This document shows, piece after piece, positions 15,668 through 53,571 of a DNA stretch of 64,000 nucleotides. Position 1 is the first letter of the stretch, and each line of letters begins with the position of its first letter. Below the pieces are notes generated by a model. That model worked only from the letters and a program-made list of their open reading frames with translations, did no database searches and had not been told where the DNA came from. Source of the DNA: Chromatiales bacterium. GTDB taxonomy: Bacteria > Pseudomonadota > Gammaproteobacteria > Chromatiales > Chromatiaceae. The DNA lies in assembly GCA_028280505.1 (NCBI GenBank), contig JANQLO010000038.1:62001-126000 (forward strand). The letters run 5' to 3'. Both the position numbers and the translations under genes were made by a program.

Positions 15668-16599
15668 GCAGCACGATCTCCCACATCGACGCCGTTCTTC
15701 ACCATGTCGATAAACAATTGCTCCAGGCGATTCTGTTTGTTACGCAAACTCAGTACATCGATACCGCGATCGTTCAGCGCGGCGAACAGGGCATTCAACC
15801 CGGCCTCACGGGTTACCGACACCTCCAGCGTGGTGCTGTCGAGCAATTCCAGCGTAACGCCGGGGATCTCATCGATATCCTGCAATGCCTGACCGACGTC
15901 GAGCACGAAGGTCTCGGTATGTAAGCGACGCAACAGCTCGTTCATGGCTGCGCGTTCGGCGATCATCCCGTTATTGATAATGGCGATGTGTCGACACAGA
16001 CTCTCGGCCTCTTCAAGATAATGAGTGGTCAATATGATGGTCGTGCCATCACCGTTGATACGACGCAGGAAATCCCACATCGACCGCCTTATCTCGATAT
16101 CGACTCCCGCGGTCGGTTCATCCAAAATCAACAAACGAGGACGATGCACCAAAGCACGTGCGATCATCAGCCGACGTTTCATACCACCCGACAGATCTCT
16201 TGCCTGGCTGCCACGCCTATCCCATAGATCGAGTTGCTTCAGCGAAACCTCGGCACGCCGGTAGGCCTCGCGCCGTGGGATTCCGTAATAGCCGGCCTGG
16301 TTAACCACGATCTCCACCACCGGCTCGAACAGATTGAAATTGAATTCCTGCGGCACCAGGCCGATCGACGATTTGACCGCCTCGGGCTCGCGATCCAGAT
16401 CGTGCCCAAAAACGCTCACGCTGCCACCGCTTTTGTTGACCAGGGAACTGACAATGCCGATCGCCGTCGATTTGCCGGCGCCGTTCGGCCCCAAAAGCGC
16501 GAAGAAATCGCCTTCGTCCACCTCCAGATCGATGCCGCGCAAAGCCTCGTGGCCATTGCGATAGGTTTTGCGCAGCGCGTGCAGCACCAATGCTTTCAT
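15664..16599 (-). CDS. ABC exporter ATPase, YadG-like
   Basis: ATP-binding partner of the adjoining permease. Walker A LLGPNGAGKSTAIG, signature ARDLSGGMKRRLMIARALVH and Walker B LLILDEPTAGVDIEIR are all present, with a C-terminal extension typical of YadG. The ATG at 16599 is preferred because TAGGAG lies upstream; an in-frame start at 16632 adds only 11 atypical residues. About 311 residues. Confidence 0.9.
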   Translation of the reverse strand: MKALVLHALRKTYRNGHEALRGIDLEVDEGDFFALLGPNGAGKSTAIGIVSSLVNKSGGSVSVFGHDLDREPEAVKSSIGLVPQEFNFNLFEPVVEIVVNQAGYYGIPRREAYRRAEVSLKQLDLWDRRGSQARDLSGGMKRRLMIARALVHRPRLLILDEPTAGVDIEIRRSMWDFLRRINGDGTTIILTTHYLEEAESLCRHIAIINNGMIAERAAMNELLRRLHTETFVLDVGQALQDIDEIPGVTLELLDSTTLEVSVTREAGLNALFAALNDRGIDVLSLRNKQNRLEQLFIDMVKNGVDVGDRAA

Positions 16600-16661
16600 T
16601 TTTCGAACGACTCCTACCCCCGGGCGCATCATTCTAAACCAGGCGGCCTGCCGAAAAGCGC

Positions 16662-19401: not shown

Positions 19402-20174
19402 ATGAACCCTATCATCCGTGTCGATATCGATCTAGCCAAAACACCTTCTCCTTGTACGTTGTCGATGCGCACGAGCACATCGTGCTCGAGAAAACACTCC
19501 GGCGTGCCGAGTCACTGACCTTCTTCAGCAATCTGCCTCCCTGCATTGTAACGATGGGAGCCGGCTCCGATGCGCATCATTTAGCCAGGGCACTGCACGA
19601 TCTCAGCCACGACGCCCGTATCATCGATACTAGCTTTGTTGCACCTTACCGCCAAGTTGGAAGGCACGTAAAGAATTACCGTAATGACACCCGCGTCGTC
19701 TGCGAAGCCGCCAGCCACCCATCGAAGCGTTTCGTCCCGATCAAAGATCTACAGCAGCAGGCCATATTGGTCATGCATCGCTGCCGTCATGCAGCCGTCA
19801 CCCGACACACCCGGCTGGCGAATCAGCTGAGCAGGCTGCTGACCGAGTTCGGCATTATCGTGCCCCGGGGCTTCGCACCACTCAAGCGTCGGTGGCCAGA
19901 ACTTCGCCTGCGCTATGCCGATCGGGTACCTTTGCTGGCCTGGGAAATACTCGATCGCCTATTCAACCAAGTGCAGAAGCAACACCAATTGATCCTGCAT
20001 TACGAGCGCCAAATCACCGCACTCAGTCGTGACAACCCGGCAGTGCGCCGGTTACAAAGCATCAAGGGCGTCGCACCGTGCGTGAAGGTCGACTCACTCA
20101 GGAATGCCTACCCTGCAGACACACTGGCGGCCTCGCTAGTATCGCCAAAGCCACGATGGCCTGCGCGACCTTAA
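19402..20174 (+). pseudogene. Decayed IS110-family transposase
   Basis: The start MNPIIRVDIDLAKT is in one frame and the continuation FSLYVVDAHEHIVLEKTLRR in another, so there is a frameshift near 19445. The IS110/IS1111 pattern is clear: AESLTFFSNLPPCIV, CEAASHPSKRFVPIKDLQQQAIL, LTEFGIIVPRG, and VRRLQSIKGVAP. The usual Glu in the MEACGSAH-type motif is Gly here (VTMGAGSDAHHLAR), and part of the following Asp-rich segment is lost. The C-terminal domain is broken near 20120. It is almost certainly inactive. Clear element ends were not found. Confidence 0.85.
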
Positions 20175-20256: not shown

Positions 20257-22383
20257 CTAGAAACCCGACTCACGTATCAGGACACCCGCAACTTGCCTCC
20301 ACACCGTTGCCACCGCACTTACCCCGTCGGCTTCCAATGCAGCAACGCCGATCTGCCGATTCGCCAAAGGGGTTTTCGACGGCGCTAGCGGTGAGAGCTC
20401 GACCCGGTAATACGCCCGCTCTGTGCGATAGGTTTCAGCACCCGGCTCTTTGCGCGCGGCCACCGGGCCACCGAAATCTGATACTAGTTCTTTGAACGCT
20501 AGCTCATCGGTCGCGGCCACATCGATGGCGACGATCTTGACGTCAATCACAGACCGATCACCAGAATCGGCGATGAATTGCCCCTGAGCGCCCTCACGCA
20601 AACGTTGCAGATTCGACTCGTCGACGAAAGCCGTAACTGAGGTGCCGGCATTACCAACGACGGTCGCGAGACGATCCCTCGGCGCAATCCACTGTCCGAT
20701 GGACGGCCAGCGATCACGAAACAGGCGACCATCGAACGGTGCCCGGACTACAAGCTGTTCCAGCCTTTTCTCCAGCCCCTCAGCCTCAGCAGTTTTCTCA
20801 GCTAACTGTTGAATCACGATCGAAGCACGGTCACGTTCGAGCAGCGAACCAACACGGCGGTCCAGTTTTAGCTCCAACAAAGCGATCTCGCGTCTCACTG
20901 CCTCCAGTTGGTAACGGACATCCGGAGAGTCCAACCGAGCGATAACCTGGCCCGCGTTCACTCGACCGCCGTCGGTGTCGAGCAACATAGTGACCTGCGC
21001 CGGCTCAGGCGCGAAAAGGCTGCGTTGTTCAGCCTCGTGCGCAACCGCTGGAATTGATATCGTGGTACGCCAAGGCACAAACAACACAGCGAGCAGGCCA
21101 GTCAGCAATACCAGTGTGGTAGCCGTCTGCCGATTCAAGCGTACATTGCCCCGCCGTTGCCACCACTGTGCGATTTCCCTGTGCACGGGTAACAAGATGA
21201 ACCAGGCGATCTCCACGGCGAAAAGCACGATGCCGAGCACTTTGAAGAAGAAATGATAGACCAGCACCGCAATACCAAGAAACAGCACCAGTCGGTAAAG
21301 CCAAGTCGCCCAGGCGTAAAGCACCATCAGACGCACCTGTCGCTGTGGCAGGGGCTCTGGAGCCGGTTCACCGAAACCGAAAAGGCGTTCGCGCAGCGCC
21401 CAGCGCGCCAGTGCGAACGCGCGCGGCTGCAGATTATCGATGCCCCACCAATCGGCCAGTGCATAGTAACCGTCGAAGCGCATGAACGGGCTTAGATTGA
21501 TCAGCAACGAACTGATCCATGCCGTCGATGCGACGAAAAAGGCCGCAGTGCGCACGATCCCTTCAGGCAGAAACACCCATAGCAATGTCGCCAGCAATGC
21601 AAGCGACAGTTCTGTGCGGATCCCAGCCAGCGCAACGGCCAGGCGTTGCCGCCGCTCGGTCAGGCGCCAAACGTCGGTCGTGTCAGTATAGAGCACCGGC
21701 AGCATGACCAGGAAAGCAACCCCCATGGTCGGCACACGGCAACCATGATGTTTTGCGACAAAGGCGTGACCGAGCTCGTGCGCGGACTTGGTGAATACCA
21801 GAGTACACGCGAACAAGACTGCCCCCTGCCAATCGAGGAATGCCTCGAACGTCCCCAGAAAACTCTCCCACTGACGGCTCGCGAGGACGATGCCGAGCAT
21901 ACCGATCGCGACCAACACAGCGGATGTCGTGCGTCTACCCATCCACCGTACCCATGGCAAAGCGCGGGTGAGGAAGCCGTCAGGCCTGACCAGGGGAATG
22001 CGGACGAACAGATAATGATGAACCAACCACCATAGCCAGTGCTGCTGACGTTTGCGATGTTGATCGCGCAAATGTTCGATTGCTTTCGGGCCGTCGGCAA
22101 CGAGCAAATTGTTTGCTCGAAGGAATGCGAGAAACGCTTCAGTCTCTTCGCGAGAGACCTCGATATCGCGCTCCGCCAGCACGCTGAGATAACGCTTCAG
22201 GCCAAGTCCGTCCTGCCAGTGTTCTAGGAGACGAAACGCGGTACGCTGGAGACTGAAGTAAGAATGGCGTAGCGGATCATAGATCAACCAGGTCGGGGAA
22301 CCGTCCTCTGCATTACGCCCCGGCAACAGACGGAGATCGGACCTCAGGATCGGTAACACAGGATCCGATACCGTCGTATTCAT
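20257..22383 (-). CDS. Membrane protein fusing a PqqD-like domain, an M50-type zinc protease and an HlyD-like adaptor
   Basis: The 708-residue product has three parts. Residues 1 to about 100 are soluble and resemble a PqqD-like winged helix (TWLIYDPLRHSYFSLQ). Residues about 150-440 are a multi-span domain with the metalloprotease motifs HELGH (202-206) and NLSPFMRFDGYY (296-307), as in M50 site-2 proteases. Residues about 445-708 form an HlyD-type adaptor with coiled coil and the lipoyl-like halves (VRAPFDGRLFRDRWPSIGQW). The ATG at 22383 is preferred over a TTG at 22413. It is the last gene of the LEPR operon. Family members exist, but a defined role is not known to me. Confidence 0.85.
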   Translation of the reverse strand: MNTTVSDPVLPILRSDLRLLPGRNAEDGSPTWLIYDPLRHSYFSLQRTAFRLLEHWQDGLGLKRYLSVLAERDIEVSREETEAFLAFLRANNLLVADGPKAIEHLRDQHRKRQQHWLWWLVHHYLFVRIPLVRPDGFLTRALPWVRWMGRRTTSAVLVAIGMLGIVLASRQWESFLGTFEAFLDWQGAVLFACTLVFTKSAHELGHAFVAKHHGCRVPTMGVAFLVMLPVLYTDTTDVWRLTERRQRLAVALAGIRTELSLALLATLLWVFLPEGIVRTAAFFVASTAWISSLLINLSPFMRFDGYYALADWWGIDNLQPRAFALARWALRERLFGFGEPAPEPLPQRQVRLMVLYAWATWLYRLVLFLGIAVLVYHFFFKVLGIVLFAVEIAWFILLPVHREIAQWWQRRGNVRLNRQTATTLVLLTGLLAVLFVPWRTTISIPAVAHEAEQRSLFAPEPAQVTMLLDTDGGRVNAGQVIARLDSPDVRYQLEAVRREIALLELKLDRRVGSLLERDRASIVIQQLAEKTAEAEGLEKRLEQLVVRAPFDGRLFRDRWPSIGQWIAPRDRLATVVGNAGTSVTAFVDESNLQRLREGAQGQFIADSGDRSVIDVKIVAIDVAATDELAFKELVSDFGGPVAARKEPGAETYRTERAYYRVELSPLAPSKTPLANRQIGVAALEADGVSAVATVWRQVAGVLIRESGF

Positions 22384-22387
22384 CAGG

Positions 22388-23722
22388 TCACCAACCCAAC
22401 CACTGACGAGCAACCGTGATCGGCCGGCGGAACATCAGGTAGAACAATGAGACTCGCTCTCCGTAGAGCTTTGCGACACCACGCAGGCCGATTCGGTGGT
22501 CGACATCGGGTTGTTCGAAATCAGCCGTCACTTCGAAGGCCATCACACCTTCTGGCGTCAACGCGGGTTCGAAAGCGGCCCGCACCACACGCGCATCGAT
22601 CGGATCGAGCGGTGCAGCATCGAGAAACAACCGCACCTCCGCGCCCAGTTCGATCAACAGTGCATCCTTGACCGGAAGATGGATGGTCACTTCAGTGGAC
22701 GTTGGATCCGCCAACGCGAGGATGCGCTCCCCTACGTCGACAGGCCTGCCGCGCCAGTCGTCCGGTTCGTCGATAATCACGATACCCGCTCGTTCCGCAC
22801 GCACGTCGGCGCGCGATAGCTGTTGCAGCGCGAACTCGCGCTCGGCGCTCCTGAGTTCAGCCTGCGCCTTGAGCTCCGCCAGACGCTCCTTCTCGCGCGG
22901 GTCACGAAAGGCTGCCTGTTGTCCGGTGCGATAGGCCGCAGACGCTACAGCCAGCGCACTGTCGGCGACCTCGAACCGGCTGTTCAGGGTTGTCTTGCTA
23001 TAGCTTACCAGCAATGTGCCGGGCGATACCGCCTGATTGGAGTCAACATGAATCGCTTCAATCACCCCATTCAGTGGGGCGGTTACCAGCTCCGGCGACT
23101 TGGCCGCAACGGCAGCCGGCGCCAACGCAGTCAGACGTACTGGGATTAAAAACGTCACCAACAACGCGCCGAGTAGGCCGTAACCAATCACGCCACTTGG
23201 CAAGACTTTTTTAACCCAACCGCCACGAGTAGACAGAGCCTGTACACGCAGGGCAAGACCGTAGCTATCAGCCAGATGGGCAAGCGCCGGGAATGCCCCT
23301 TGGTCCCATGCAGCCTTGCGCGCAAGCCAAAGCACGCCCGGTTGCTCGCCATTCGGTGCATACAAGGGTATGAGCAACCCTTGTGGCGGCGCCATGTCAC
23401 TCCAAGCGCTCGCGAGGTCCGCCGGTATGTCAGTCGAGGTCAAAGCAAGTGGAGCGTTCAGACCAGAGCGGTGGTGCGCAGCGACTCGCTCAACCCATTG
23501 CACGAACGGCGCGCTACGGTCCACGACCGGTAGGTTTGACAAATTGCGCACACCGTAGTCGCCTCGAGGCCCTTTCAACAGCAACGCGGCCTGAGAATAG
23601 TCCACCAGTTTCTGCGTCTCATTGACGATCGTGAACCCAAGATCAGTCAAGCTCTGCGCAGAATGAGCGGCCTTCTGCAAAGCAAACAGCGCACCCGTCG
23701 CGTCCTGGTTTGGCCGGGTCAT
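22388..23722 (-). CDS. HlyD-type adaptor with a cytoplasmic GAF-like domain
   Basis: The 444 residues divide into an N-terminal GAF-like soluble domain (about 20-165; LTDLGFTIVNETQKLVDYSQ and LIPLYAPNGEQPGVLWLAR), one membrane helix (about 175-200) and a periplasmic HlyD-like part with lipoyl halves (VTAPLNGVIEAIHVDSNQAV and AERAGIVIIDEPDDWRG) and a beta-barrel. It ends 4 bp before the ATG of the M50 gene and follows the smaller adaptor by 15 bp, so the genes are co-transcribed. The GAF-like part would face the cytoplasm, which is unusual for an export adaptor. Confidence 0.8.
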   Translation of the reverse strand: MTRPNQDATGALFALQKAAHSAQSLTDLGFTIVNETQKLVDYSQAALLLKGPRGDYGVRNLSNLPVVDRSAPFVQWVERVAAHHRSGLNAPLALTSTDIPADLASAWSDMAPPQGLLIPLYAPNGEQPGVLWLARKAAWDQGAFPALAHLADSYGLALRVQALSTRGGWVKKVLPSGVIGYGLLGALLVTFLIPVRLTALAPAAVAAKSPELVTAPLNGVIEAIHVDSNQAVSPGTLLVSYSKTTLNSRFEVADSALAVASAAYRTGQQAAFRDPREKERLAELKAQAELRSAEREFALQQLSRADVRAERAGIVIIDEPDDWRGRPVDVGERILALADPTSTEVTIHLPVKDALLIELGAEVRLFLDAAPLDPIDARVVRAAFEPALTPEGVMAFEVTADFEQPDVDHRIGLRGVAKLYGERVSLFYLMFRRPITVARQWLGW

Positions 23723-23737
23723 CGCGTTTTCAAACCA

Positions 23738-24541
23738 TCAAGGTACAGTGTCAGCAACCGTGAAAAGTACGGTCGCGCTCATACCGGGTACCAACTGGCC
23801 ACTGTCGGTATCAAGACGTACGCGCAACGTCATTGACTGGCTCGCGGGATCGACCACCGCACCCGGCACGATCACCTCACCCGAAACCTCCAAGCCGGTC
23901 TCATCAATAAATGCCGTCAGTGGCGTGCCTTTTTCGATCCAGGTCAGCCAGGTCGCCGGCACGATCACTTCCATCTCGCGCACTGCGTCGTCTACAATCT
24001 CAAGCAGTTCCTGACGCTCGCCGACACCTTCATTCTCGCGCACCATTGTACGCACGACCCGACCATCGAAAGGCGCAGCGAGCCGACATCGCTCGACCGC
24101 GAGTTCCGCGATTCGCACGCCTGCTCGTGCCTGCGCCAATTCCGCTTCGCTGATTGCTAGTTCGAGCTTGCCGACTTTGCGCAGCTTGGCCATCTTGCGG
24201 TTGCTCTTAACCGTCTGCGAAGCCGCATTCCGCTCGGCGCGTACTTTGTCGCGCTGCGCCTCGAGGACACGACAGTCGAAAGTGAGCAAGCGATCGTCTT
24301 TGTTAAATGTCTCGCCGGCACGGAACGGCAGACGGGTGACGCGGGCATTGATCTCGCTCGACAATACGACCTGGCGAGGCGCGATCACGACACCGCGAGT
24401 CTCAAAGCGCTGCTCGGCCAATGAAAGCATCGGCATACCCGGCATACTGGCCAGCACCGGCGCCGCAGATAAGAGGACGGAAAATACTAGCACCTTGCGG
24501 CACCGCCCCCATGTGCGCCACGCGCCCGTCCGGATGGTCAT
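23738..24541 (-). CDS. Periplasmic adaptor protein, RND/HlyD type
   Basis: Membrane-fusion protein of about 267 residues: signal peptide (VLVFSVLLSAAPVLA), a lipoyl half (GVVIAPRQVVLSSEINARV), a coiled-coil hairpin rich in Glu/Ala/Arg, the second lipoyl half (RLAAPFDGRVVRTMVRENEG) and a beta-barrel domain. It would connect inner-membrane partners to the TolC-like protein encoded just upstream. The ATG at 24541 gives a clean signal peptide; the longer frame to 24688 overlaps the TolC-like gene by more than 100 bp. Confidence 0.82.
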   Translation of the reverse strand: MTIRTGAWRTWGRCRKVLVFSVLLSAAPVLASMPGMPMLSLAEQRFETRGVVIAPRQVVLSSEINARVTRLPFRAGETFNKDDRLLTFDCRVLEAQRDKVRAERNAASQTVKSNRKMAKLRKVGKLELAISEAELAQARAGVRIAELAVERCRLAAPFDGRVVRTMVRENEGVGERQELLEIVDDAVREMEVIVPATWLTWIEKGTPLTAFIDETGLEVSGEVIVPGAVVDPASQSMTLRVRLDTDSGQLVPGMSATVLFTVADTVP

Positions 24542-24569
24542 CTGAGCGATACCAGACACATCTCGGATT

Positions 24570-26672
24570 CTAGATGACACCATCCTCAGTACCCTGCTTA
24601 ACTTCGCTGGCGATGGCACTGACGTTCCGCACGTAAGGACCGTAACGGCGCATCTTCCACGGAAGTTCAACTGACGCCCGACGCGCATCGTTCAGCGATT
24701 CATAAGCGCCGTAGAGCAGGCCCCAGTGTGGTAGCGACTCGCTGTCCGAACGGTAGACGTAGACGTTGTCCAACAGACCGTTGTCGCGCGACATGCGCAA
24801 GAAGCGCTCGACCTCCTCCTCTGAGCCTCGCGCCGTGCCAAGCTGAACGGTAAAGGGCCTCACCTCTTCACTGACCCATGTCTTGGTAACTGCAATGCGC
24901 TGCTCCAGCAGACTACCGTCAATCGATTCAGCCACTGGAATTTCGGTGATATCGACTTCCGGACCGGCCGCGCCAGGAGTGGAATCTTCGACTACGAAAA
25001 CATTATCCTGAATACTCAGTCCAATCGGCGCATCCGTTTCGATCGGCTCGCCGGCTTCCACTGGCTCCTCGGTAACCGGCGTCGCTTCGTCTTCGGCCGC
25101 AAAGACTCCATCAGTCACGATAGAGTCCTCATACGGAACGAACAGACCCGGCTCCGCGTCGGTCCAGGCCTGCAGCCGCTCCGCGATACCATCTGATAAG
25201 GTAGCAAGATCGTCACTAGCCACCGTATCGGGCAGCGGATCGACACCCATCGACGCGAACACGCGACCATAGCTGTTCTGAACGCTGGCATAGGCTACAT
25301 CGCGTCGCAGTTCAGCCAGAACGGCGTTGAGTTGTTCGCGGATCACCTGCAGTTCGCCAACCTGGCTGGCCTCGCCAGCCGCATCGACATAACCCGTGAT
25401 CTGACGCGCGACGCCAAGATACTCGGCGGCGATCTCAAAATCGTTGACCGCTTGCGCATAGCTGATACGGGCCAGGTGGACCTGACCGAGAACGGCCATC
25501 GAAAGCGCCAGGCGACGTTGCTCGGCAACCTGCTCCTGCACCTCGGCAACTTCCATGGCGACCGGCGCCTTGAACACGTTGAACAGGTTCCACGAGATAA
25601 CCGCGCCAACCTGGTTCCACGTGTTGTTCACGAGGAAATCATTGCTGTCATAGTAGCGACCAAAATCAATCGTGATACCCGGCAGCACGCCAAGAAGAGC
25701 GGCACGCGCCTCTTGGCTGGAGATACGCGTCTCGTAACGGCTCTCCATCAGTTCCGGCCGACGCATCAGCGCCGTGTGTTCCATGTCCTCGATAGAGACG
25801 TTGAGTTCCGGAACCTGCATCCCGGCCTCGGCCACCGCCGCAAGCGTAAACACCTGACCCGGTTTGAGCCCCATCAGCGTCCCGAGTTCGGTCTTCGCAC
25901 CAGCGAGATCTCGCCGCAGGCCCTGCAACGAGCGCAGCATATCAAGCAACTCGCGCTTGTACGTCAATGCCTCAAGCGGTCGTTCAACCTGTTCTTGTTC
26001 AATTGTCTCAGCATCGGCCAAGGCCTGGTCGACACGTACCATCAGCGGGCCAATCTCACGCAACAGCCGATCGGCAGACAAGGCTCTCCAATAAGCGCCT
26101 CGCACTTCTTCAGTGATCGTGTGCAACGCCTTACGCTCTCGCTCACGCGCAATCAGCGCACGATCGGCCTGCTGCCGTGCACGAACATAGGAAAGCCCGA
26201 AGTCGAGGATGTTCCACGAAAACACCAACTCAGCGTTGGTTGACTCCCGCTCAGTCGAGGTGGAGGGCTCCAAGGACTCGTTGCCAGTCAACACCGACGT
26301 GCTGGAACTCGCCTGGAGATTGTTACGATCGCTGTACCCGGCCTCGGCCGTCAGCATCGGCAACATGTCGAATCGCGCCAAATCGAGTTGGCGTTGCTGC
26401 AACGCCGTCTCCATCATTCTAAGGCGCTGCTCCCGGTTATACTTGACCGCGCGCGCGATAGCCTCCGGCAGGGTGATTGGCTGCTCGACCGGGGCTACAT
26501 CCGTTGTTAGCGCGCGCAGATCCTGGCTGATCTGCTTGTTGGTAAACTTATCGTCGAGTGCTTCGGGCGTTACGGCGCAGGCCGTTAGAAAACCAAGCGC
26601 GGCAGCAGCCACCAACACTCGAAAACGCTGCCACACGAGCGCGGTGCGCGCTGATACAGGCCTCATCGCCAT
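24570..26672 (-). CDS. TolC-family outer-membrane lipoprotein with C-terminal SPOR domain
   Basis: The 700-residue protein starts with a lipoprotein signal (AALGFLTAC, lipidated Cys32). Residues about 50-470 are an outer-membrane efflux domain with two repeats of long helices. An acidic linker rich in Glu, Thr and Pro follows (about 480-600). Residues about 604-690 resemble a SPOR domain (PFTVQLGTARGSEEEVERFL, HWGLLYGAYESLNDARRA). SPOR domains bind denuded peptidoglycan (known), so the channel may be tethered to the wall. An AAGGAG ribosome binding site 2 bases before the ATG fixes the start. It lies 64 bp after the giant gene with no terminator between them. Confidence 0.87.
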   Translation of the reverse strand: MAMRPVSARTALVWQRFRVLVAAAALGFLTACAVTPEALDDKFTNKQISQDLRALTTDVAPVEQPITLPEAIARAVKYNREQRLRMMETALQQRQLDLARFDMLPMLTAEAGYSDRNNLQASSSTSVLTGNESLEPSTSTERESTNAELVFSWNILDFGLSYVRARQQADRALIARERERKALHTITEEVRGAYWRALSADRLLREIGPLMVRVDQALADAETIEQEQVERPLEALTYKRELLDMLRSLQGLRRDLAGAKTELGTLMGLKPGQVFTLAAVAEAGMQVPELNVSIEDMEHTALMRRPELMESRYETRISSQEARAALLGVLPGITIDFGRYYDSNDFLVNNTWNQVGAVISWNLFNVFKAPVAMEVAEVQEQVAEQRRLALSMAVLGQVHLARISYAQAVNDFEIAAEYLGVARQITGYVDAAGEASQVGELQVIREQLNAVLAELRRDVAYASVQNSYGRVFASMGVDPLPDTVASDDLATLSDGIAERLQAWTDAEPGLFVPYEDSIVTDGVFAAEDEATPVTEEPVEAGEPIETDAPIGLSIQDNVFVVEDSTPGAAGPEVDITEIPVAESIDGSLLEQRIAVTKTWVSEEVRPFTVQLGTARGSEEEVERFLRMSRDNGLLDNVYVYRSDSESLPHWGLLYGAYESLNDARRASVELPWKMRRYGPYVRNVSAIASEVKQGTEDGVI

Positions 26673-26736
26673 TACTCCTTATTAGCTGTAGTCTAAGTAA
26701 GTAAACGACTGATCCCGATAAATCTTTAGCTTCTTT

Positions 26737-29700
26737 TCATGCGACTTTCGAAAGCGACTCGACCACGACATCACCATGGCGCCCGACCTCTTTCGCCGCA
26801 TCTTCGATCTGCTCGGCGAACGGTTTTAGGCCTTTCAGATCTGCAGCAGGTTCGGTCACCCCTTCACCCTGATCAGCGTCGCTGTAGATAACCTCCAGAA
26901 TGCGCATTTCACCATCGGCGTCGATGGCCATCAGGCGGAAATGGAAATCCCCAAGCCCATCGGGTAGATCGCCATTCACCATACCCGTCATGGGGTCTAC
27001 TTGGATCCATTTCGGTAACGGCGTGCCATCAAGCTGGGTCGCAATGTAGCGGGTCGACGACGTTGCGAGCGTATCGTCGATTTCTACTGCGAGGCGTTCG
27101 TCTTGTACCTCAATTGCTACGACAAGCATGCCGACTCGTTCAGCTGCCTGCTGCCGCTGGCTCTGATCGGAGAAATGCACCGAACCATCCACATCCGCCC
27201 ATACCTCGACTGATGCCACCATTGCATCTCGATTTTGTACGACGGGTGCACGCGGTGTGTCGTTACTGTCGGACACCGGTATGGATTCATCGGTCGCTGT
27301 AGGCGCCGGCTGGGCAGGCGACGCCGGAACAGCGGATTCAGGCGCCACCAAAGACTCGCCAACCGATACCGTTGAGCTCGTGCTGCTGGAAAAACCATCG
27401 CCAGGCTGCGGAATCGTTGTCGTGAAACCGGGTATCCCACCGCCACTGGGCGGCGTCGGCGGGTCGACCAGCACGGGGCCATCACCCATCGGCGGCGCCG
27501 GTGGATCGAGCGGAGTCGTCGGTGAACCGACGGATGGTTCAGTCGCAGGCGGTGGCGGCGGGCTGACGGTCAATGTCGTCGTCGTTGAATAGGTTCCGCC
27601 ATGACCATCATCAACCGTGATCCGGATCTGACCCACGCCGGAGCCACGTGGTACACCGCTCAGCGTGCCGGTCGCCGGATCGATACTGACCCCCTCGGGC
27701 AAGCCGGTGGCGGAGAAGGTCAACGAATCGCCGAGATCGGCATCGGTAAACGCACCGGGCGGAAGCTCGTAAGTGAACGGCATGCCATCGGTAGCACGCA
27801 GGTCCGAATCCAACGGCACCGACAACACCGGCGCATCATTGGTGTTATCCAGAGTGAGGTCGAATACGTGCTCGACGGTGCCACCCTCACCGTCGTCGGC
27901 GATCAGTTTGATTGGCACCGTACCGATGTCATTCGGTGAATTGCCACTGAATGTTCTGGTGTTGGAATCGAAGCTCAACCAGCCGGGCAAAGGCGATCCA
28001 TCACCGAGCGTTGCCGTATAGGCCAGCGTGTCGCTGACATCGCCGTCAGCAAAGGTATCCGCAGTAAACGTGAAGGCCCGAATCCCGGCACCGTCGAACA
28101 ACGGCGACTGGCCGACGACCGATCTGTTGACCGTTGGCGTGTCGTTGGGGTCGACAATCGACAAACGGAAGCTGTCACTGACCGATGCCCCGAGGTCATC
28201 GCGGGCGGTCACCTCGATGTCGATATGGTCCGCGCCACCATTGGGTGGATTGCCGCTGAAGGTCCAGGTCGGGGCATCGAAGGTCAACCATGACGGCAAC
28301 GCCGCACCGCCGACCTGGCGCGCGGTGAACGTCAGCGCATCACCGACGTCCGCATCAGCGAACGCCCGCTCATTGATCGTATAACTGTGATGACCGGCAC
28401 CACTGAACGTGTGGTCGTCGATGCCGGCATCGACGTGCGGCGTATCGTTCATGTTCGATACGGTCAGGGTGAAGTCATCGAAGACGCTGCCACCCTTCCC
28501 GTCGTCGGCCGTCACGCGGATGCTGACGTCCGTCGCATCGTTTGGCGGGTTGCCACTGAAGGTCCGTGTAGCGGCATCGAAGCTCAGCCAATTCGGCAAC
28601 GGTGATCCGTCGACCTGCGTCGCCGAATAGGTCAGCGTGTCATTCTCAACGTCGTTGAACGCGGCGTCACTGAATTGGAAAGACTGGCTACCTGCGCCGT
28701 CAAATGCCTGGTTCGGGATTGGTGCGTCGACTGTCGGCGCATCGTTGACGGGCGCCACGTAGATGGCCACCTGGGCGATCATGCTCTTTTCATTGGTACC
28801 CGAGGTGTACTGATACAGGAACGTCTCGACACCGTTCCAATTTTCGTTCGGGATGAAATCGAACTCGGCATAGTCCTGACCGGCGGCGATGTAGCGACTG
28901 GCGTCACGCAGCATCAACCTGCCGTTGTCGAGTTGGTAGCCGATCACATCGTTTGTGGCGTTCAAATCACCGTTGAGGTCGAACTCGGCGTAGATCTCGT
29001 TGCCGCTGAACGGCGTCAATGAGCCACCGTTGCCGTCCGCATCGTCCGGCGTACCGGTACCGAACACATAGGTACCGCCGTTGTCGTTGATATCGGCGAT
29101 CAATGCGCCTACATCGACAAACCCGATCGAGTCCTCGGCCATCGGCACATTGGTGCTGTCGGCATTCGGCAGGGCGGGCATGACGATGACCGTCTTGGTC
29201 GCGAGCGCGTCACCACCAACACCGTCGGCCACCGAAATCGTCAGGGTATCAGGGCCCGGGGCAACCACGTCGTTACCCACACCCGCTGCGTAAGCCAGCC
29301 CACCGGCATCGGACAGCGTGGCGTTAATCTTGTCGACCGTACTGGTAATGGTGACGGTGCCGGACCCGTTATTACTGACTTCACCGGCGCCTACGCCGCC
29401 ACTGACGGTCGTATCAAAGGTCAGTGTGCCGTACGGCGAACCCGAAACCTCGCTGAGTGAAAACACGACCGTCACGTTGTCGTTATCGACATCGTCTACC
29501 GAGAGACCAGACAGGACAAACCGACCGGTGGGATTGGTATTGATGTCTTTCTGGGTGGTAAACAGCTGACCACCGAGATCGATCGTCGGATCGTCATTGA
29601 CGACCTGGATGTTCACAGTCGCCTGCTTGACGCTGTAGCGGGCGGTTACCGAACCACCGTCGCCGCCGTCATTGACCTGGATCGACACGGTTCGCGCGGC

Positions 29701-32700
29701 ACCAGATGCATTGTCGCTGGCATTGCTGAACGCGATCGAGCGCGCAAGCGCCTGGACCTTGGCGGCATCGGCGTTTGCGTTCAGGTTGATCCGCAGATCG
29801 CGCCCTTCAAGACCGTTGTAGGTACCATCGACCGTACCAATCTCGGTCCCATTGTACCGCACACTACTACCGGACAGCGTGATTCCGCCGACGTCCAGAA
29901 TCGCGAAACTGTCCTCAGCCTCGCCGTTCGCCGTCGTCATCACCGTCAGGCTGCCCTGGTCATAGCTTCCCGGTTCCGGATCGGTGATGGTGATCGTCGG
30001 GTCGATCCGAACACCGGCACCATTCTCGGTGAAGGTCACGGCCGAAGTCGGCCCGCCAAGCAACGGCGCATCATTGACCGAGGCGATCTCGACGGTGAAT
30101 ACCGCGCTATCGCTCGCTCCCTCGGCATCGGTGACGGTCACCGTAAAGGTCTCGGAAACATCTGCGCTCAGCGCATTGATTGCACCAGCGTCCGGGACAT
30201 AGCGGTAAGCACCGGTGGCCGTCGTCACCGTCAGGGTGCCGTAGGTCCCTTGGTACGACACCGTACCATCACCGTTATCGTTGCTGCCGCTAATGTCATA
30301 AGTCAGCACGGCGCCGTCATCGACATCCGAACCCTGCAGGACTCCGGTGGCATCCGAGAAGCTGTCGGCGCCGTCCGTGTCCGTGTAGTACACGGTCGTG
30401 GGGGTCGCGATCACCGGCGGATCGTTGACCTCCGTGACGACCATCGACTGCGTCGCGGACTTCGTGTCGCCACCTTCGGTCGCCGTGGTCAGCGTGAACG
30501 TACGGTTCTGCAGCCCGTTCACGGCCGTCAGGTCCGACGTGCTGCTGTAGGTCACCAGTCGCGCCAGGGCCTGTAGCGCAGCGGCGTCGACGCCGCTTGG
30601 CGGAGAGGCCTGGGTGACAGTGACATCGTCGATGAAAAGTTGTGCGCCGAGTAGACGACCGCCTGTGGCATCGAAGGTGCCGGATACGAACACGAACCGG
30701 TATTCACCGGCCGTGTCGACGATGATCTCTTTCTCCGCCCAGCTGGTGAAATCCCGGGCATGCGCGCCGGTTTCGTCGAGAATGGTTTTGATTTCTCCGG
30801 TGTTGACCTCGACCACATAACCGTAGACGTCGTAGGCATCGCCGCCGCCTTCCGCCTTCCAGTAGAACGAAACCTCGTCACCCGCCTCCAGAGCCACCGT
30901 CCCTTCGCTGTAGATATAGGGACCGCGGATCACCTCGTAGCCGCTGTTCGACCACATTCGGCTGTACATGCGTACCGAGTTACCGCTACCGCCGTTGGCG
31001 GTGCTGCCACTGACCAAGTCGGCGGTGTAGGTCTCCGAACGCAGACTACCGCTGTCATAGAGGCCTCGAGACACCGTCTGTGAGGGATAGGTGGAATCTG
31101 TCGGGGTATCCTGACCCGCGATCTGGTCCTGACCGAAGATCACGCGCTGATTGACCAGACTCCATCCGGTTACCGTGATATCGCCATGTGACCCGGTCTC
31201 GAAATTGCCGTTCTCGAATTCGGTCGTGAACTTGATGCGCAGACTGTTACCGTCCTGGCCGTTTCGCGTACCATCGACGGAACCGATAACCTTGGCCTCG
31301 GTACCGTCTCCGAGATAGACCGCATTGCCAACCACCGTGACCACACCATCAGCGATTGAAGCCGTCTGGGACCGGATCAAACTGATCACATCACCCGATT
31401 GCGGGTTGTCCAGTGAGATATCGATATAGCCACCGCCGTACTGAACGCCCGGTTCCTGTTCGATGACCGCATCCTGCAGCACCGTGATCTCGCTGCCCTG
31501 CTCGGTATAGTCGGCCTGACGTTCAACCTCTGCGGTGATGTTGACGGTCAACGTCACCTCTGCCGTGGTGGTTCCATCGCCCACTTGCAGCGTGAAGGTT
31601 TCGCTGGCATTACTGTCCAGTGCGTTGATCGCGACGCCATTGGGCGCATAGGTATACTCACCCGTCGCCGTATTGATGCGGAGCGTGCCGTAGCTGCCCG
31701 CCAAGGTCGACATGCCGGCACTCACCGAACCGCCATCGATACCGTAGGTCAATGTTGTGCCGGCATCGACGTCCGAAGCCGCGACCGCAGAACCGATCGT
31801 TCCGAATACATCCGCGCCAGCGGAATCGGTCAGATCGATACTCGACGGCGTCGAAACATCAGGCGCATCGTTCGCACCGTTGATCGTCACGGTGAGACTG
31901 ACCGTCGCATCATCCCCTGGATCTACCGGAGAAGCCCTGAAGGTATAGCTCTCTTGCTCCTGGACCCCACCACTCAAGGCTTCGATCACATTGCTGTTTT
32001 TCTCGTAGAGATACTCCCCAGTGCTCGAGTTCAAGTAAAGCGTGCCATGCGTTCCCGCCTTGGAAACATCGTAGGTGACCCCTCCGATCAGATCGCTGCC
32101 ACCGGTGACGCCACCATCGATACCAAAACTGATCGAAGACGGAATCTGTGACTCATTAGCGACCAGCGTGCCGGTGAGATCCTGATCGACGGTCGTCGAA
32201 GCATGTAGATTCTCGGTGATCGTCGCCTCATCGACCGGACCCAATGTGACCTCGACAACATCCAACGTCCGCTGGCCCGACAGCTGCAGTACCGGATCGC
32301 CGCCCATCCCACCGTACTCCACGACATATCCACTCAGGGTATGGGTCGACGAAAGGTCGTTCCAACCATCCACAGTGCTGTAGAACTGGGCGTAGTCCTC
32401 GTTGCTACCGGTGCCGGCGTTGTTCGGCTCGTTCGTGTTCCAGTTCTCGTACATGCCGCCAACGGCATTACCACTCGCATTACCGCTCCAGAACTGAGTA
32501 CCTGCCTCAGGTCCGGTCACCCATCGCCAAACCCCTTCGGCGGCTTCGTCGCTCGCGCCGATCCAGCCGTCACCGGTCAGTTTTGTCGCGATATAGTCGT
32601 TCTCAGCGTCGCTGGTCACCGTAGCCAAGTAGCCTTGGAGACCGAACAATGAACGCGCAGCGGCGGCATCACGCGCTTGAGACCAGGTCAAGGTTGACGC

Positions 32701-35229
32701 CACGTACTCGTAGTAGTGGCCATTGTCGCTGAATGCCACCGCCGGGCCGGCGGTTATGCTGATGTTGCGCTGACCAACCGACGGATCCGCTTGCCCGTTA
32801 GCAAAGGTCACGGAGCGCAATACGGCTTGATATTGGGCCGCCGAAGCATTTCCAGTGAAAGACAAAACGCCGGTAGTGCTGTTGTAACTGCCACTGATGC
32901 CGGCCGCTGTCGCCACGCTCGAATTGAAAGCGAGCACGTCGCCAAGCTGCAGGTTTTCAATGATGACCTGCGCCGAGTTGAGATCGGAGCCCCCAGAGTC
33001 CGCATCGGTCAATTGAAGTGTCGGATCGACGGCGACCGCCGAACCGCCTTTGATGAAGGTGGAACTACCCACGGATACCGTCAGCTCCGGTGGATCGTCT
33101 ACGGGATTGACGGTAATCGAGAAAGTGCCCGATACAGCAGAAGCGCCGTCCTGCCCACCGTCGGCCAGGGAGAAATCGAAGCTGTCGCTGGTGGTCTCTC
33201 CACCATCGTGCGTATAGCTGATGAGGCCGCTATTGATGTCGGCCTGTGTAAACGTGTCGTTTGTCGCCAATGCCACGCCATTTCGATAAAGCGTCCCATT
33301 CACAGGGTCGGTTCCCAGGGTGTAGGTAAGCTCTGCTGCCACATTATCGGGATCGGCAGCCGCCAACATTGTGTTGGTGATCGTCGTGGTCGCACCCTCA
33401 TCCAGCGCAGTACCGGTGTTGGTAGGGACTGACGGTGCATCGTTGATCGCAGCAATGGTAATATTGCTGGTGGTCGAACCGGCGTTCGAATTGGCATCAA
33501 CCGCCGTAACGGTCAGTACGCGGGTCGTGGTACCGGGGTCGTCGGACGTGTTTTCGAACGTCACACGGCGGGCGATGTCGGTCATCGCAGCGTCGTTGAC
33601 CCCGCTGGGCGGATTCGCTTGTGTGACAGTGACGTCGTCGATATAAAGCTGCGCGCCTGCCGCTAGTCCGCCACTGTAATCATAAGTTCCGGAAACAAAG
33701 ACGAATCGGTAAGTACCCGCTTGCGTTACCGTGACAGTCTCAGTCGCCCATGTCGTAGAAGCGCTACTACTCGAGCCGGTTTCGTTGAGTATGGTCTCGA
33801 TATGGCCGTTATCGACATTGACGATGTAGCCATAGACGTCATACGCATCACCACCTCCTTGGGCCTGCCATTCGAATGAAACCTGGTCATTCGCTTCCAA
33901 GGCTACGGTACCATTGCTGTAGATGTACGGCCCACGAACAATGTCGTAGCCACTACTCGTTGTCATCCCCGCGCTTCTCATCTTTACGGAGAAGCCGCTG
34001 CCGTCGTTCTGTGTAGCGTCCAGCTGCGTCGTCAGCGAGCCAAGGGTAGTAGGCGTATTTTGATCCGTATGAGAGCCAACAGGGCCATTGGTAGGCCAAA
34101 CTGTATCGACTGGTGTCGGTAAACCCGCTATCGTATCGGTCCCGAACTTGACCTGTTGGTTGATAGCTGTCCAACCTGTAATGATCGTCGATCCGGCAGA
34201 CCCTTCGTTAAAATCACCGTTCTGGAACTGATTGGAAAAATTGATACGTAGTTTTTCACCGTTCTGACCGTCGTAGGTGCCGTCAACACTGCCGATGACT
34301 TTCGCGGTCGAGCCGTCGCCTTGGTATACAACGCCACTGACGATACTGATCTGACCATTAACGGTTGACGGGCTTCCATCCTCCGCCAAGCCAAGCTGAT
34401 CGGCGGCCTCGGTGTTGGACAAGGTGAACTCGATATAGCCACCGGAGTAGTCACCGCCGTTGGTGATCGTTACATCGCCGTCGATCGTTCGCACACCGTC
34501 ACCTTCGGTGTAACCGAGATCTGACAATCCCGAGACGGAAGGCGTACTGAGAATCCGACCGTAGCCCGCAGGCGCAATCTCGGAGGTTTCTATTCCCCCG
34601 GTGCTAACCTCGAGATTCCAGTCGCCGCCCAGCGCGGACGCGCCGCTCAGGTCATCCGACGCCGAAACATCGGCCCCGGTCGCCGAAGCAAATGCGGCGA
34701 CGAAGTCTCGGCCCTGACCCTCTGCGCCGGTGTAGCAACCATAGAGAAGGATATCGCCTGCGCTATCGAGGGTTTCACCCAGCGCCTTCAGATCGGCTTG
34801 GCGTTCCGAAATGGTGTCGCTATCGAGTAACGTATTACCCAGGGTGACCTGGCCGATGTCGCCATGAGAAAACACGTGAATGGCGTCGATGCCCCCTTCG
34901 CCGGAGAGCACCTGAACCATCTGGTCGAGACCGTCGGCCGTGCGTTCGATGACATGGACTTCGACGTTGTCGGGCAGCCCCGCCAACAACGATTGGAAGT
35001 CGTCGACACCGGCATCGACGAAGGCCACCTCTCGCCGCGCGCCACCGGCCGCCGGCGCGGTTACGGGGGTCTCCGTCGTCTCTTCAGCGGATGGTTCGGT
35101 CGGCTCGGCGTCGGACGCAGCCTCCGCGGCGACTACGTCGGCTACAGCGGCACCGTCGAACATCAAGCGAGGTTCGAGCGTAGTAATCAGTGGAACTTTT
35201 GGCCGGTTTTCTTCCTTGCGACACGTCAT
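26737..35229 (-). CDS. Giant LEPR/DUF4347/cadherin-like repeat surface protein
   Basis: About 2830 residues, acidic and nearly cysteine-free. Residues 18-27 carry the LEPR motif (LEPRLMFDGA). Residues about 65-215 match DUF4347 (HVFSHGDIGQVTLG, ILLYGCYTGAEGQGRDF). Two related modules of about 300 residues follow (around 34500-33540 and 31500-30520), each with GGDAYDVYGY and a YRFVFVSGT strand. Between them are VCBS/cadherin-like repeats and a C-type-lectin-like domain (residues about 828-980; WNTNEPNNAGTGSNEDYAQF). Residues about 2160-2555 are dystroglycan-cadherin-like repeats (SFDAATRTFSGNPP), then a proline-rich hinge. A GAGGT site 8 bases before the ATG at 35229 decides the start. Likely an exported adhesin or matrix protein. 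Confidence 0.88.
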   Translation of the reverse strand: MTCRKEENRPKVPLITTLEPRLMFDGAAVADVVAAEAASDAEPTEPSAEETTETPVTAPAAGGARREVAFVDAGVDDFQSLLAGLPDNVEVHVIERTADGLDQMVQVLSGEGGIDAIHVFSHGDIGQVTLGNTLLDSDTISERQADLKALGETLDSAGDILLYGCYTGAEGQGRDFVAAFASATGADVSASDDLSGASALGGDWNLEVSTGGIETSEIAPAGYGRILSTPSVSGLSDLGYTEGDGVRTIDGDVTITNGGDYSGGYIEFTLSNTEAADQLGLAEDGSPSTVNGQISIVSGVVYQGDGSTAKVIGSVDGTYDGQNGEKLRINFSNQFQNGDFNEGSAGSTIITGWTAINQQVKFGTDTIAGLPTPVDTVWPTNGPVGSHTDQNTPTTLGSLTTQLDATQNDGSGFSVKMRSAGMTTSSGYDIVRGPYIYSNGTVALEANDQVSFEWQAQGGGDAYDVYGYIVNVDNGHIETILNETGSSSSASTTWATETVTVTQAGTYRFVFVSGTYDYSGGLAAGAQLYIDDVTVTQANPPSGVNDAAMTDIARRVTFENTSDDPGTTTRVLTVTAVDANSNAGSTTSNITIAAINDAPSVPTNTGTALDEGATTTITNTMLAAADPDNVAAELTYTLGTDPVNGTLYRNGVALATNDTFTQADINSGLISYTHDGGETTSDSFDFSLADGGQDGASAVSGTFSITVNPVDDPPELTVSVGSSTFIKGGSAVAVDPTLQLTDADSGGSDLNSAQVIIENLQLGDVLAFNSSVATAAGISGSYNSTTGVLSFTGNASAAQYQAVLRSVTFANGQADPSVGQRNISITAGPAVAFSDNGHYYEYVASTLTWSQARDAAAARSLFGLQGYLATVTSDAENDYIATKLTGDGWIGASDEAAEGVWRWVTGPEAGTQFWSGNASGNAVGGMYENWNTNEPNNAGTGSNEDYAQFYSTVDGWNDLSSTHTLSGYVVEYGGMGGDPVLQLSGQRTLDVVEVTLGPVDEATITENLHASTTVDQDLTGTLVANESQIPSSISFGIDGGVTGGSDLIGGVTYDVSKAGTHGTLYLNSSTGEYLYEKNSNVIEALSGGVQEQESYTFRASPVDPGDDATVSLTVTINGANDAPDVSTPSSIDLTDSAGADVFGTIGSAVAASDVDAGTTLTYGIDGGSVSAGMSTLAGSYGTLRINTATGEYTYAPNGVAINALDSNASETFTLQVGDGTTTAEVTLTVNITAEVERQADYTEQGSEITVLQDAVIEQEPGVQYGGGYIDISLDNPQSGDVISLIRSQTASIADGVVTVVGNAVYLGDGTEAKVIGSVDGTRNGQDGNSLRIKFTTEFENGNFETGSHGDITVTGWSLVNQRVIFGQDQIAGQDTPTDSTYPSQTVSRGLYDSGSLRSETYTADLVSGSTANGGSGNSVRMYSRMWSNSGYEVIRGPYIYSEGTVALEAGDEVSFYWKAEGGGDAYDVYGYVVEVNTGEIKTILDETGAHARDFTSWAEKEIIVDTAGEYRFVFVSGTFDATGGRLLGAQLFIDDVTVTQASPPSGVDAAALQALARLVTYSSTSDLTAVNGLQNRTFTLTTATEGGDTKSATQSMVVTEVNDPPVIATPTTVYYTDTDGADSFSDATGVLQGSDVDDGAVLTYDISGSNDNGDGTVSYQGTYGTLTVTTATGAYRYVPDAGAINALSADVSETFTVTVTDAEGASDSAVFTVEIASVNDAPLLGGPTSAVTFTENGAGVRIDPTITITDPEPGSYDQGSLTVMTTANGEAEDSFAILDVGGITLSGSSVRYNGTEIGTVDGTYNGLEGRDLRINLNANADAAKVQALARSIAFSNASDNASGAARTVSIQVNDGGDGGSVTARYSVKQATVNIQVVNDDPTIDLGGQLFTTQKDINTNPTGRFVLSGLSVDDVDNDNVTVVFSLSEVSGSPYGTLTFDTTVSGGVGAGEVSNNGSGTVTITSTVDKINATLSDAGGLAYAAGVGNDVVAPGPDTLTISVADGVGGDALATKTVIVMPALPNADSTNVPMAEDSIGFVDVGALIADINDNGGTYVFGTGTPDDADGNGGSLTPFSGNEIYAEFDLNGDLNATNDVIGYQLDNGRLMLRDASRYIAAGQDYAEFDFIPNENWNGVETFLYQYTSGTNEKSMIAQVAIYVAPVNDAPTVDAPIPNQAFDGAGSQSFQFSDAAFNDVENDTLTYSATQVDGSPLPNWLSFDAATRTFSGNPPNDATDVSIRVTADDGKGGSVFDDFTLTVSNMNDTPHVDAGIDDHTFSGAGHHSYTINERAFADADVGDALTFTARQVGGAALPSWLTFDAPTWTFSGNPPNGGADHIDIEVTARDDLGASVSDSFRLSIVDPNDTPTVNRSVVGQSPLFDGAGIRAFTFTADTFADGDVSDTLAYTATLGDGSPLPGWLSFDSNTRTFSGNSPNDIGTVPIKLIADDGEGGTVEHVFDLTLDNTNDAPVLSVPLDSDLRATDGMPFTYELPPGAFTDADLGDSLTFSATGLPEGVSIDPATGTLSGVPRGSGVGQIRITVDDGHGGTYSTTTTLTVSPPPPPATEPSVGSPTTPLDPPAPPMGDGPVLVDPPTPPSGGGIPGFTTTIPQPGDGFSSSTSSTVSVGESLVAPESAVPASPAQPAPTATDESIPVSDSNDTPRAPVVQNRDAMVASVEVWADVDGSVHFSDQSQRQQAAERVGMLVVAIEVQDERLAVEIDDTLATSSTRYIATQLDGTPLPKWIQVDPMTGMVNGDLPDGLGDFHFRLMAIDADGEMRILEVIYSDADQGEGVTEPAADLKGLKPFAEQIEDAAKEVGRHGDVVVESLSKVA
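30520..34500 (-). repeat. Internal duplication of a ~300-residue module in the giant surface gene
   Basis: The stretches about 34500-33540 and 31500-30520 encode clearly homologous modules in the same order: a VDGTYDGQNG / VDGTRNGQDG strand, FQNGDFNEG / FENGDFETG, VRGPYIYSNGTVALEA / IRGPYIYSEGTVALEA, GGGDAYDVYGY in both, YRFVFVSGT in both and IDDVTVTQA in both. The copies are diverged, so the duplication is old. They flank the C-type-lectin-like and cadherin-like region. Confidence 0.85.
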
Positions 35230-53498: not shown

Positions 53499-53571
53499 GT
53501 GTAGCTCCCTCTTACTTATTTACAAGGTAACCATCCACTCCCGTTGCAACAACGCTACACAAAATCTCGGC

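Follow-up and report, generated by a model that had tools for sequence, protein, structure and literature searches.

How could a giant protein leave the cell when the genes packed against its own encode an outer membrane channel, adaptors and an intramembrane protease, and none encodes an ATP-binding cassette (ABC) exporter? The question is raised by a minus-strand block at 20257-35229 of a 64,000-nucleotide stretch from a Chromatiales bacterium (contig JANQLO010000038.1, positions 62,001 to 126,000; this whole stretch is called the window here). Five open frames of the block encode, in order, a giant, a TolC-family protein, a soluble adaptor, an HlyD adaptor and a fusion of an M50 protease with HlyD (M50-HlyD). 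Comparing sequences, we propose with a probability of about 0.57 that the block is a dedicated, ABC-less export pathway for a giant surface protein tagged with an LEPR motif. Probably it belongs to a widespread secretion route for giants that works without the usual ABC pump.

The widest intergenic gap in the block is the 64 bp between the giant and TolC genes. Terminator-like patterns between 20000 and 36000 are at chance level, 12 found against a mean of 12.0 after shuffling. On these points an earlier sequence-only reading, which had described five minus-strand genes in this order, gaps of at most 64 bp and no terminator, is borne out. It had also described the block as a dedicated set without an ABC exporter. 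Pfam finds DUF4347, immunoglobulin (Ig), cadherin, C-type lectin, OEP, HlyD and Peptidase_M50 families in the block proteins and no ABC exporter. Related loci agree, as no ABC gene was detected inside the block at any of 80 loci (two single-sequence profiles, E up to 1e-6; blocks cut by a contig end counted as far as seen). These loci are the best 80 of at least 565 found in a scan with one genome per species, and are skewed to close relatives and Pseudomonas.

The block is a conserved unit across these 80 loci. The HlyD adaptor adjoins M50-HlyD in 75 of the 76 loci with room for it, the soluble adaptor is present in 66 of 72, and an LEPR frame is seen in 39 of 80. TolC was found within the fetched stretch in 36 of 65 loci, which is a lower bound because in at least 4 Pseudomonas loci TolC sits further downstream, after the giant and near the end of the stretch. 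The hosts include Pelagibacteraceae, other Alphaproteobacteria, Gammaproteobacteria (Pseudomonas and others) and Nitrospira. A plasmid search returned 78 records with a relative (52 at 80% protein coverage or more), and the block is carried by plasmids of Azospirillum, Burkholderia, Kosakonia, Niveispirillum, Variovorax, Eleftheria and E. coli. Among 5,426 E. coli genomes 24 have the M50 gene, with 21 of its 25 places on plasmids, and Citrobacter plasmids carry a relative with the same level of identity.

The giant combines DUF4347 with four He_PIG Ig-type stretches and cadherin-like and C-type lectin domains, and no RTX family is among its Pfam matches. No ordinary signal peptide is visible, because a Kyte-Doolittle scan shows no hydrophobic segment in the giant. 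An LEPR motif lies near its N-terminus. The consensus is ALEPRimFDGAAaATaae in 43 N-termini of the window branch and LEPRxLLSAD in 9 N-termini of a sister branch described below (including L158, an unrelated frame), and L, E, R and D are invariant across 8 giants. Among 420 frames of at least 600 residues in the loci, 49 have the motif near the N-terminus, some of them duplicates or close relatives, against 0.2 per pass in shuffled proteins. The motif is not a product of chance. With the curated LEPR-8K model (NF012209, cut-off 17 bits), copies on contigs C50 and C76 of the same genome pass at 22.1 and 33.9 bits, and the window giant scores 13.6 bits. The LEPR motif named in the sequence-only reading therefore stands as a conserved motif and falls below the curated cut-off. 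In the loci read, open frames of LEPR-tagged giants span 843 to 12,297 residues.

The C-terminus is also conserved. A tail fitting FxxQ(L/I/V) ends 26 of 32 giants and 19 of 301 control frames, with a pattern that was derived from the same 32 giants and written after inspecting them. For this count, cassette-adjoining frames were kept as giants only when T, S, D, G and N exceeded 30%, and five plasmid giants were omitted. The six unmatched giants are those of L030, L047, L066, L081, L099 and L106.

The link between giants and machine was surveyed in 143 genomes of the class. M50-HlyD is present in 20 of them (22 matched the search; G004 and G035, with single-domain matches only, were left out). 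The LEPR-8K cut-off is exceeded in 19 genomes, and the 11 with at least 22 bits were used as strong matches. Of these 11, 10 carry M50-HlyD. Among the weaker matches, those in G094, G116 and G119 are LEPR giants with M50-HlyD, and others are in short frames without M50-HlyD. DUF4347 occurs in 16 genomes, 13 of which have M50-HlyD. Fisher p values are 2.7e-9 for LEPR and 3.9e-11 for DUF4347, with no correction for shared ancestry. DUF4347 alone was set aside as a marker, as three of its 16 genomes (G034, G068 and G128) lack M50-HlyD.

In the other direction, 15 of the 20 M50-HlyD genomes have an LEPR-type protein, two by the curated model (G077 and G090) and 13 by the motif in fetched stretches (divergent in G056 and G112). 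The remaining five (G008, G038, G060, G100 and G123) are fragmented assemblies. Because 10 of the 11 strong-LEPR genomes carry M50-HlyD, a substrate link between LEPR giants and the M50-HlyD machine, as guessed in the sequence-only reading, is supported. This co-occurrence is what the sequence-only reading had suggested surveying. It had also considered that the fusion might occur freely without LEPR proteins; the five fragmented assemblies are the only M50-HlyD genomes in which no LEPR-type protein was found.

The M50 half of the fusion exceeds the Peptidase_M50 cut-off (35.7 against 27.2 bits) and matches the zinc metalloprotease MJ0392 of M. jannaschii (3b4r, E 1.2e-4). All 56 aligned proteins keep the zinc-binding HExxH and the N, P and D of NxxPxxxxDG, which makes protease function likely. 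Several hydrophobic segments are seen in the fusion by hydropathy, and in both HlyD fusions hydrophobic segments precede the C-terminal HlyD parts. For the HlyD adaptor, we infer which of its parts lie on the cytosolic and which on the periplasmic side. HlyD_3 is over its cut-off in three block proteins and OEP reaches 106.5 bits in the TolC protein. Judged by hydropathy and by eye, this protein and the soluble adaptor begin with export-type N-termini.

Finer labels given in the sequence-only reading fared less well than the M50, HlyD and TolC assignments, which hold. SPOR at the C-terminus of the TolC protein scores 19.3 bits against a cut-off of 21. GAF is undetected in the window HlyD adaptor and is seen in up to 6 of 20 aligned proteins, the sister branch included. 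PqqD (PF05402) scores 13.0 against 23.4 bits in the window fusion (E 0.13), and matches appear in 4 of 56 M50-HlyD members at E up to 0.01. In the sister branch the domain is recognisable, with two proteins scoring 28.9 and 22.8 bits for PqqD, over and just under the cut-off.

DUF4347 is well supported in the window giant (PF14252, 165.8 against 24.6 bits), and follows the LEPR tag in 57 of 61 N-termini, a set that includes near-duplicates and L158. Its Cys is conserved in 100% and its His in 95% of 57 sequences. Peptidase_C80 matches weakly in 9 of 39 members (best E 0.012), and DUF4347 is a possible clan CD (C80-like) cysteine protease. A likeness to designed TIM barrels in the PDB was rejected, the match being four short repeats at a low score; a solved DUF4347 protein there is 9qpe chain G. 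In the literature, as far as the available text goes, a putative type VI secretion system effector of P. aeruginosa carries a DUF4347 domain, and a DUF4347 protein of B. thailandensis is raised in stationary phase. In three Nitrospirota loci (L067, L093 and L094) Glu replaces the conserved His and the Cys is kept; these domains are perhaps inactive. Two DUF4347 frames, at L177 (G077:C31) and L179 (G128:C2), lack the LEPR tag and lie beside collar genes, and the C-terminus of the former resembles an outer-membrane barrel by eye.

What could drive the giant across the inner membrane? A clue is given by the sister branch, whose M50-HlyD proteins form one clade (8 of 8 members included, support 1.0) with window-branch proteins outside it. 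M50-HlyD proteins from the two branches can be aligned along their length. The matches listed for the 143 genomes include 11 short frames of a second SecA (573-762 residues). Ten of these follow M50-HlyD immediately downstream, and the remaining one is in G081, a genome with M50-HlyD, on a different contig. Counted by genome, a SecA-like gene is adjacent in 10 of 13 sister-branch genomes and on another contig in one (G081); G100 and G123, with partial frames at contig edges only, were not classed.

This sister locus is already in print. Kamneva, Poudel and Ward (PLoS One 2015, PMC4452313) describe, in the text available, a secondary SecA_DEAD protein beside M50-HlyD, GAF-HlyD and HlyD/biotin_lipoyl proteins, with OEP proteins encoded at some loci as well. 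The SecA is suggested there as the ATPase and the M50 protein as the pore, and the broader role is called completely unknown. The available text names no substrate, and the words LEPR, DUF4347 and giant are absent from it. This published sister locus with its SecA-like ATPase corrects the sequence-only reading, which knew of no characterised mechanism for the set. In the open-licence literature we found no publication on the SecA-less branch or its N- and C-terminal tags, and none that brings a leader recognition element of ribosomally synthesised and post-translationally modified peptides (RiPPs) together with HlyD and M50.

Both branches are represented in the source genome, which has two more M50-HlyD proteins. 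On contig C38, M50-HlyD adjoins an HlyD adaptor and a giant broken off at the contig end. Contig C50 opens partway through a DUF4347 giant that has TolC and adaptor genes before it. The two contigs would be one locus split by assembly, and the corresponding gene order is present in one piece in Eleftheria terrae. The C76 copy has a 12,297-residue frame with the motif FEPRLLLSADL, a GAF-HlyD-type protein, M50-HlyD, an adaptor and a 715-residue SecA-like ATPase, that is, a secondary SecA of the Kamneva type.

No SecA-like gene was found at the 80 window-type loci. In a survey of 32 genomes (31 window-type plus the sister-type G052), 28 have one SecA only (E up to 1e-20), with more in G000, G160, G162 and G165. 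An unlinked second SecA as the general motor of the window branch was therefore rejected. We prefer the general SecYEG/SecA as the motor because the sister branch usually has its own SecA-like ATPase. For the window branch, which has no SecA of its own and mostly lives with a single SecA, Sec use is an analogy only.

The proposed pathway would run as follows. The giant, with no visible signal peptide, would be made in the cytosol. Its LEPR tag would dock on the PqqD-like domain of M50-HlyD, in a manner resembling the binding of a RiPP leader by a PqqD-type domain. The docking complex would capture SecYEG/SecA, through which the giant would cross the inner membrane. The M50 site, whose motifs are intact, may then cut in or near the LEPR region and free the chain. 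The HlyD parts of M50-HlyD, the second HlyD protein and the soluble adaptor could form a periplasmic tunnel to TolC, as their domain families suggest. DUF4347, if it is a cysteine protease, might conceivably self-process the exported chain. More tentatively than the dedicated pathway as such, we regard this as a separate diderm pathway distinct from type I secretion, consisting of PqqD-like recognition, Sec threading, intramembrane trimming and HlyD adaptors leading to the surface. It would serve Pelagibacteraceae and other Alpha-, Beta- and Gammaproteobacteria, Nitrospira and enterobacterial plasmids, with the general SecA in one branch and a dedicated SecA in the other. Features of the block are collected in Table 1.

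Table 1. Coordinates of the block genes and their motifs in the window
Feature	Position	Strand	Remark
Giant DUF4347/Ig/cadherin/C-type lectin protein, 2,830 aa	26737..35229	-	ATG at 35229; presumed export substrate
LEPRLMFDGAA motif at the giant's N-terminus	35146..35178	-	Conserved motif
DUF4347 domain with conserved His (SHG) and Cys (YGC)	34579..35028	-	Possible clan CD (C80-like) cysteine protease
Giant's C-terminal tail FAEQIEDAAKEVGRHGDVVVESLSKVA	26740..26820	-	Fits the conserved FxxQ(L/I/V) tail
TolC-family outer membrane protein	24570..26672	-	Lipobox-like N-terminus by eye; C-terminal SPOR-like domain under cut-off
Periplasmic adaptor (membrane fusion protein, MFP) with signal-peptide-like N-terminus	23738..24541	-	Frame reaches 24688; start proposed at 24541
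HlyD adaptor: N-terminal domain (GAF in relatives), one hydrophobic segment, C-terminal HlyD	22388..23722	-	Pfam and hydropathy
PqqD-like/M50 intramembrane protease/HlyD fusion	20257..22413	-	ATG at 22383 likelier start than TTG at 22413
HELGH, M50 zinc-binding motif	21766..21780	-	H212, E213 and H216 invariant in 56 aligned proteins
NLSPFMRFDG, second M50 active-site motif	21469..21498	-	N306, P309 and D314 invariant in 56 aligned proteins

Several points weigh against the proposed pathway. We found no experiment showing secretion of any such giant. The giant has no Sec signal peptide visible in the hydropathy scan, and the window branch lacks a dedicated SecA, with a single SecA in 28 of 32 genomes. 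In the sister branch a second SecA was not seen, among the matches listed, in two of 13 genomes (G052 and G094). The PqqD label of the window protein is below the Pfam threshold, and the profile link with the sister branch, at 33% probability and E 5e-4, is weak. One of the 11 strong LEPR matches, in G076, is without M50-HlyD. Some blocks have other neighbours: Magnetospirillum pMSR-1 has TolC, adaptor, HlyD and M50-HlyD genes beside a 492-residue protein without the motif, and a Phyllobacterium plasmid (L016:8791-13029) has a HrpK-like-domain protein upstream of HlyD/M50-HlyD and no LEPR giant. In addition, the source genome has ABC exporters of type I secretion system (T1SS) kind, one pair lying close to its second cassette, and the LssB model matches ABC-exporter-type proteins in 32 of 32 genomes, so that a non-T1SS ABC could serve.

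These last points bear on the least improbable alternative, still an unlikely one, in which the giant crosses the inner membrane through an unlinked ABC exporter and the block contributes only adaptors, processing and the outer channel, as a type I system in disguise. A T1SS ABC protein exceeds the LssB or PrtD cut-off in 19 of the 32 genomes, the source genome included. Of the 13 others, all but G052 were compared with the HlyB model; two of these 12 passed, and G116 and G147 had full-length matches under the cut-off. Eight of the 31 window-type genomes (G119, G143, G144, G146, G153, G168, G169 and G170) have no T1SS ABC over the cut-off of any of the three models, with no match or sub-cut-off matches starting beyond HlyB position 120. 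Among them G153 (Nitrospira) is one 4.2 Mb contig named chromosome and G119 is rated 100% complete; the other six may be incomplete. Judging from these eight, some hosts apparently do without a T1SS ABC. The export by an unlinked ABC system that the sequence-only reading had named as fatal to its idea is thus partly excluded, with the reservation that the source genome has one such exporter over the cut-off.

One PrtD-like T1SS ABC and HlyD pair lies on C38 (L011:1-2920), on the opposite strand and ~6 kb from the cassette (L011:8932-16323), its ABC protein being under the PrtD cut-off at 445 of 510 bits. The giant's C-terminal tag also resembles C-terminal T1SS signals, which are uncleaved and often follow RTX repeats. 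According to the available text of PMC10868602, LEPR-XLL occurs together with RTX domains in a Vibrio giant, so type I export may be the route for some LEPR giants. Weighing the other way, none of the 80 loci showed an ABC gene within the block, and at the place where a motor is expected the sister branch encodes a SecA-like ATPase. ABC genes elsewhere in the fetched stretch were seen at 23 of the 80 loci. Two Pseudomonas loci were opened for such matches and viewed by eye: that at L078 looks like part of an import operon, and that at L100 (P. fluorescens), a full-length match, like a separate T1SS. A deep M50-HlyD branch outside both main groups, L171 (G112:C2), has an 843-residue LEQRVVLDAAA protein between TolC and M50-HlyD. 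An ABC gene ~45 bp downstream was considered there as a hidden exporter and rejected, its best match, at 776 bits and under the cut-off of 900, being the ABC-F protein Uup and no exporter.

Next in rank, and also unlikely, is a role of the M50 transmembrane bundle itself as the inner-membrane conduit, driven in the sister branch by the SecA-like ATPase and in the window branch by some source of energy. The several hydrophobic segments of M50-HlyD would suit this idea, and a pore was proposed for the SecA-bearing locus in the available text of PMC4452313. However, a mere pore would have no need of the invariance seen in the active-site motifs, and the M50 proteins known so far act as proteases, not as channels.

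It is less probable again, and quite improbable, that the block is a processing and maturation unit akin to peptide-maturing M50 proteases, with export by another route. PqqD-like domains bind leader peptides in RiPP systems, where this is established. The M50 half matches the models of the daptide protease MpaP (NF041824, 164.2 of 300 bits) and of YydH/LiaK (NF058609, 29.9 of 225 bits), both under the cut-offs. On the other hand, envelope-channel types account for four of the five genes, one being TolC and three having HlyD domains, and these are conserved together. A chance meeting of an efflux operon and a giant gene is almost certainly not the explanation, for although HlyD and TolC families are common, LEPR and DUF4347 co-occur with M50-HlyD across 143 genomes (p ~3e-9 and ~4e-11, uncorrected for ancestry) and the adjacency is conserved in Proteobacteria and Nitrospira.

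Some neighbouring genes may be mentioned. In the window, the closest ABC genes seen are an ABC-2 pair at 14891-16632, past an oxidoreductase and a TauE gene. Adjoining the 3′ end of the block, a frame at 19452-20174 has a below-threshold IS110 transposase match and is perhaps a remnant. At 48888-55365 lies a two-partner secretion (TPS) pair of a TPS-domain exoprotein with FG-GAP and YDG repeats and a ShlB-type transporter. Elsewhere, phage tail collar genes recur near the window-type cassette (L013, L015 and L017; 21 of 80 loci; Pseudomonas, Stutzerimonas), and a Pseudomonas frame directly before the giant gene (L078:14083-14982) looks sulfotransferase-like by eye from a sequence motif. A complete window-type cassette stands on an E. 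coli IncHI1B plasmid (L023), near lac and fec genes.

How does the proposed ABC-less pathway compare with known systems? Type I secretion (HlyB/HlyD/TolC, LapB/LapC/LapE, PrtD) likewise has HlyD-type adaptors and a TolC-family channel, and a large, repetitive, adhesin-like substrate that has no signal peptide and ends in a conserved C-terminal tail. The window block differs in having no ABC exporter and in having an extra M50 protease, a PqqD-like domain and an N-terminal tag. With the leader-processing M50 proteases of RiPP systems (MpaP, YydH/LiaK) the window fusion has the M50 core in common, whereas it scores far below their cut-offs, is fused to HlyD and has a giant instead of a short peptide as its partner. 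LEPR-8K proteins (LEPR-XLL elsewhere) are like the window giant in their N-terminal LEPR on very large proteins; the window motif LEPRLMFDGAA is a variant, and NF012209 fits the sister branch with its LEPRxLLSAD better.

The nearest relative is the locus of PMC4452313. As far as its available text goes, it encodes GAF-HlyD, M50-HlyD and HlyD/biotin_lipoyl proteins together without an ABC transporter, and the window block has the same set, GAF itself being undetected in the window protein. The window branch differs from it in having no SecA-like gene, in the block or at any of the 80 loci, and in having TolC as a regular member. To that locus, whose role was left completely unknown in that text, our analysis proposes a substrate, the LEPR-tagged giants. 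It adds a second branch without SecA and two short sequence tags, which make the idea testable. If true, both branches would represent an export route that dispenses with an ABC exporter as well as with a classical signal peptide, serving giants that are among the largest bacterial proteins.

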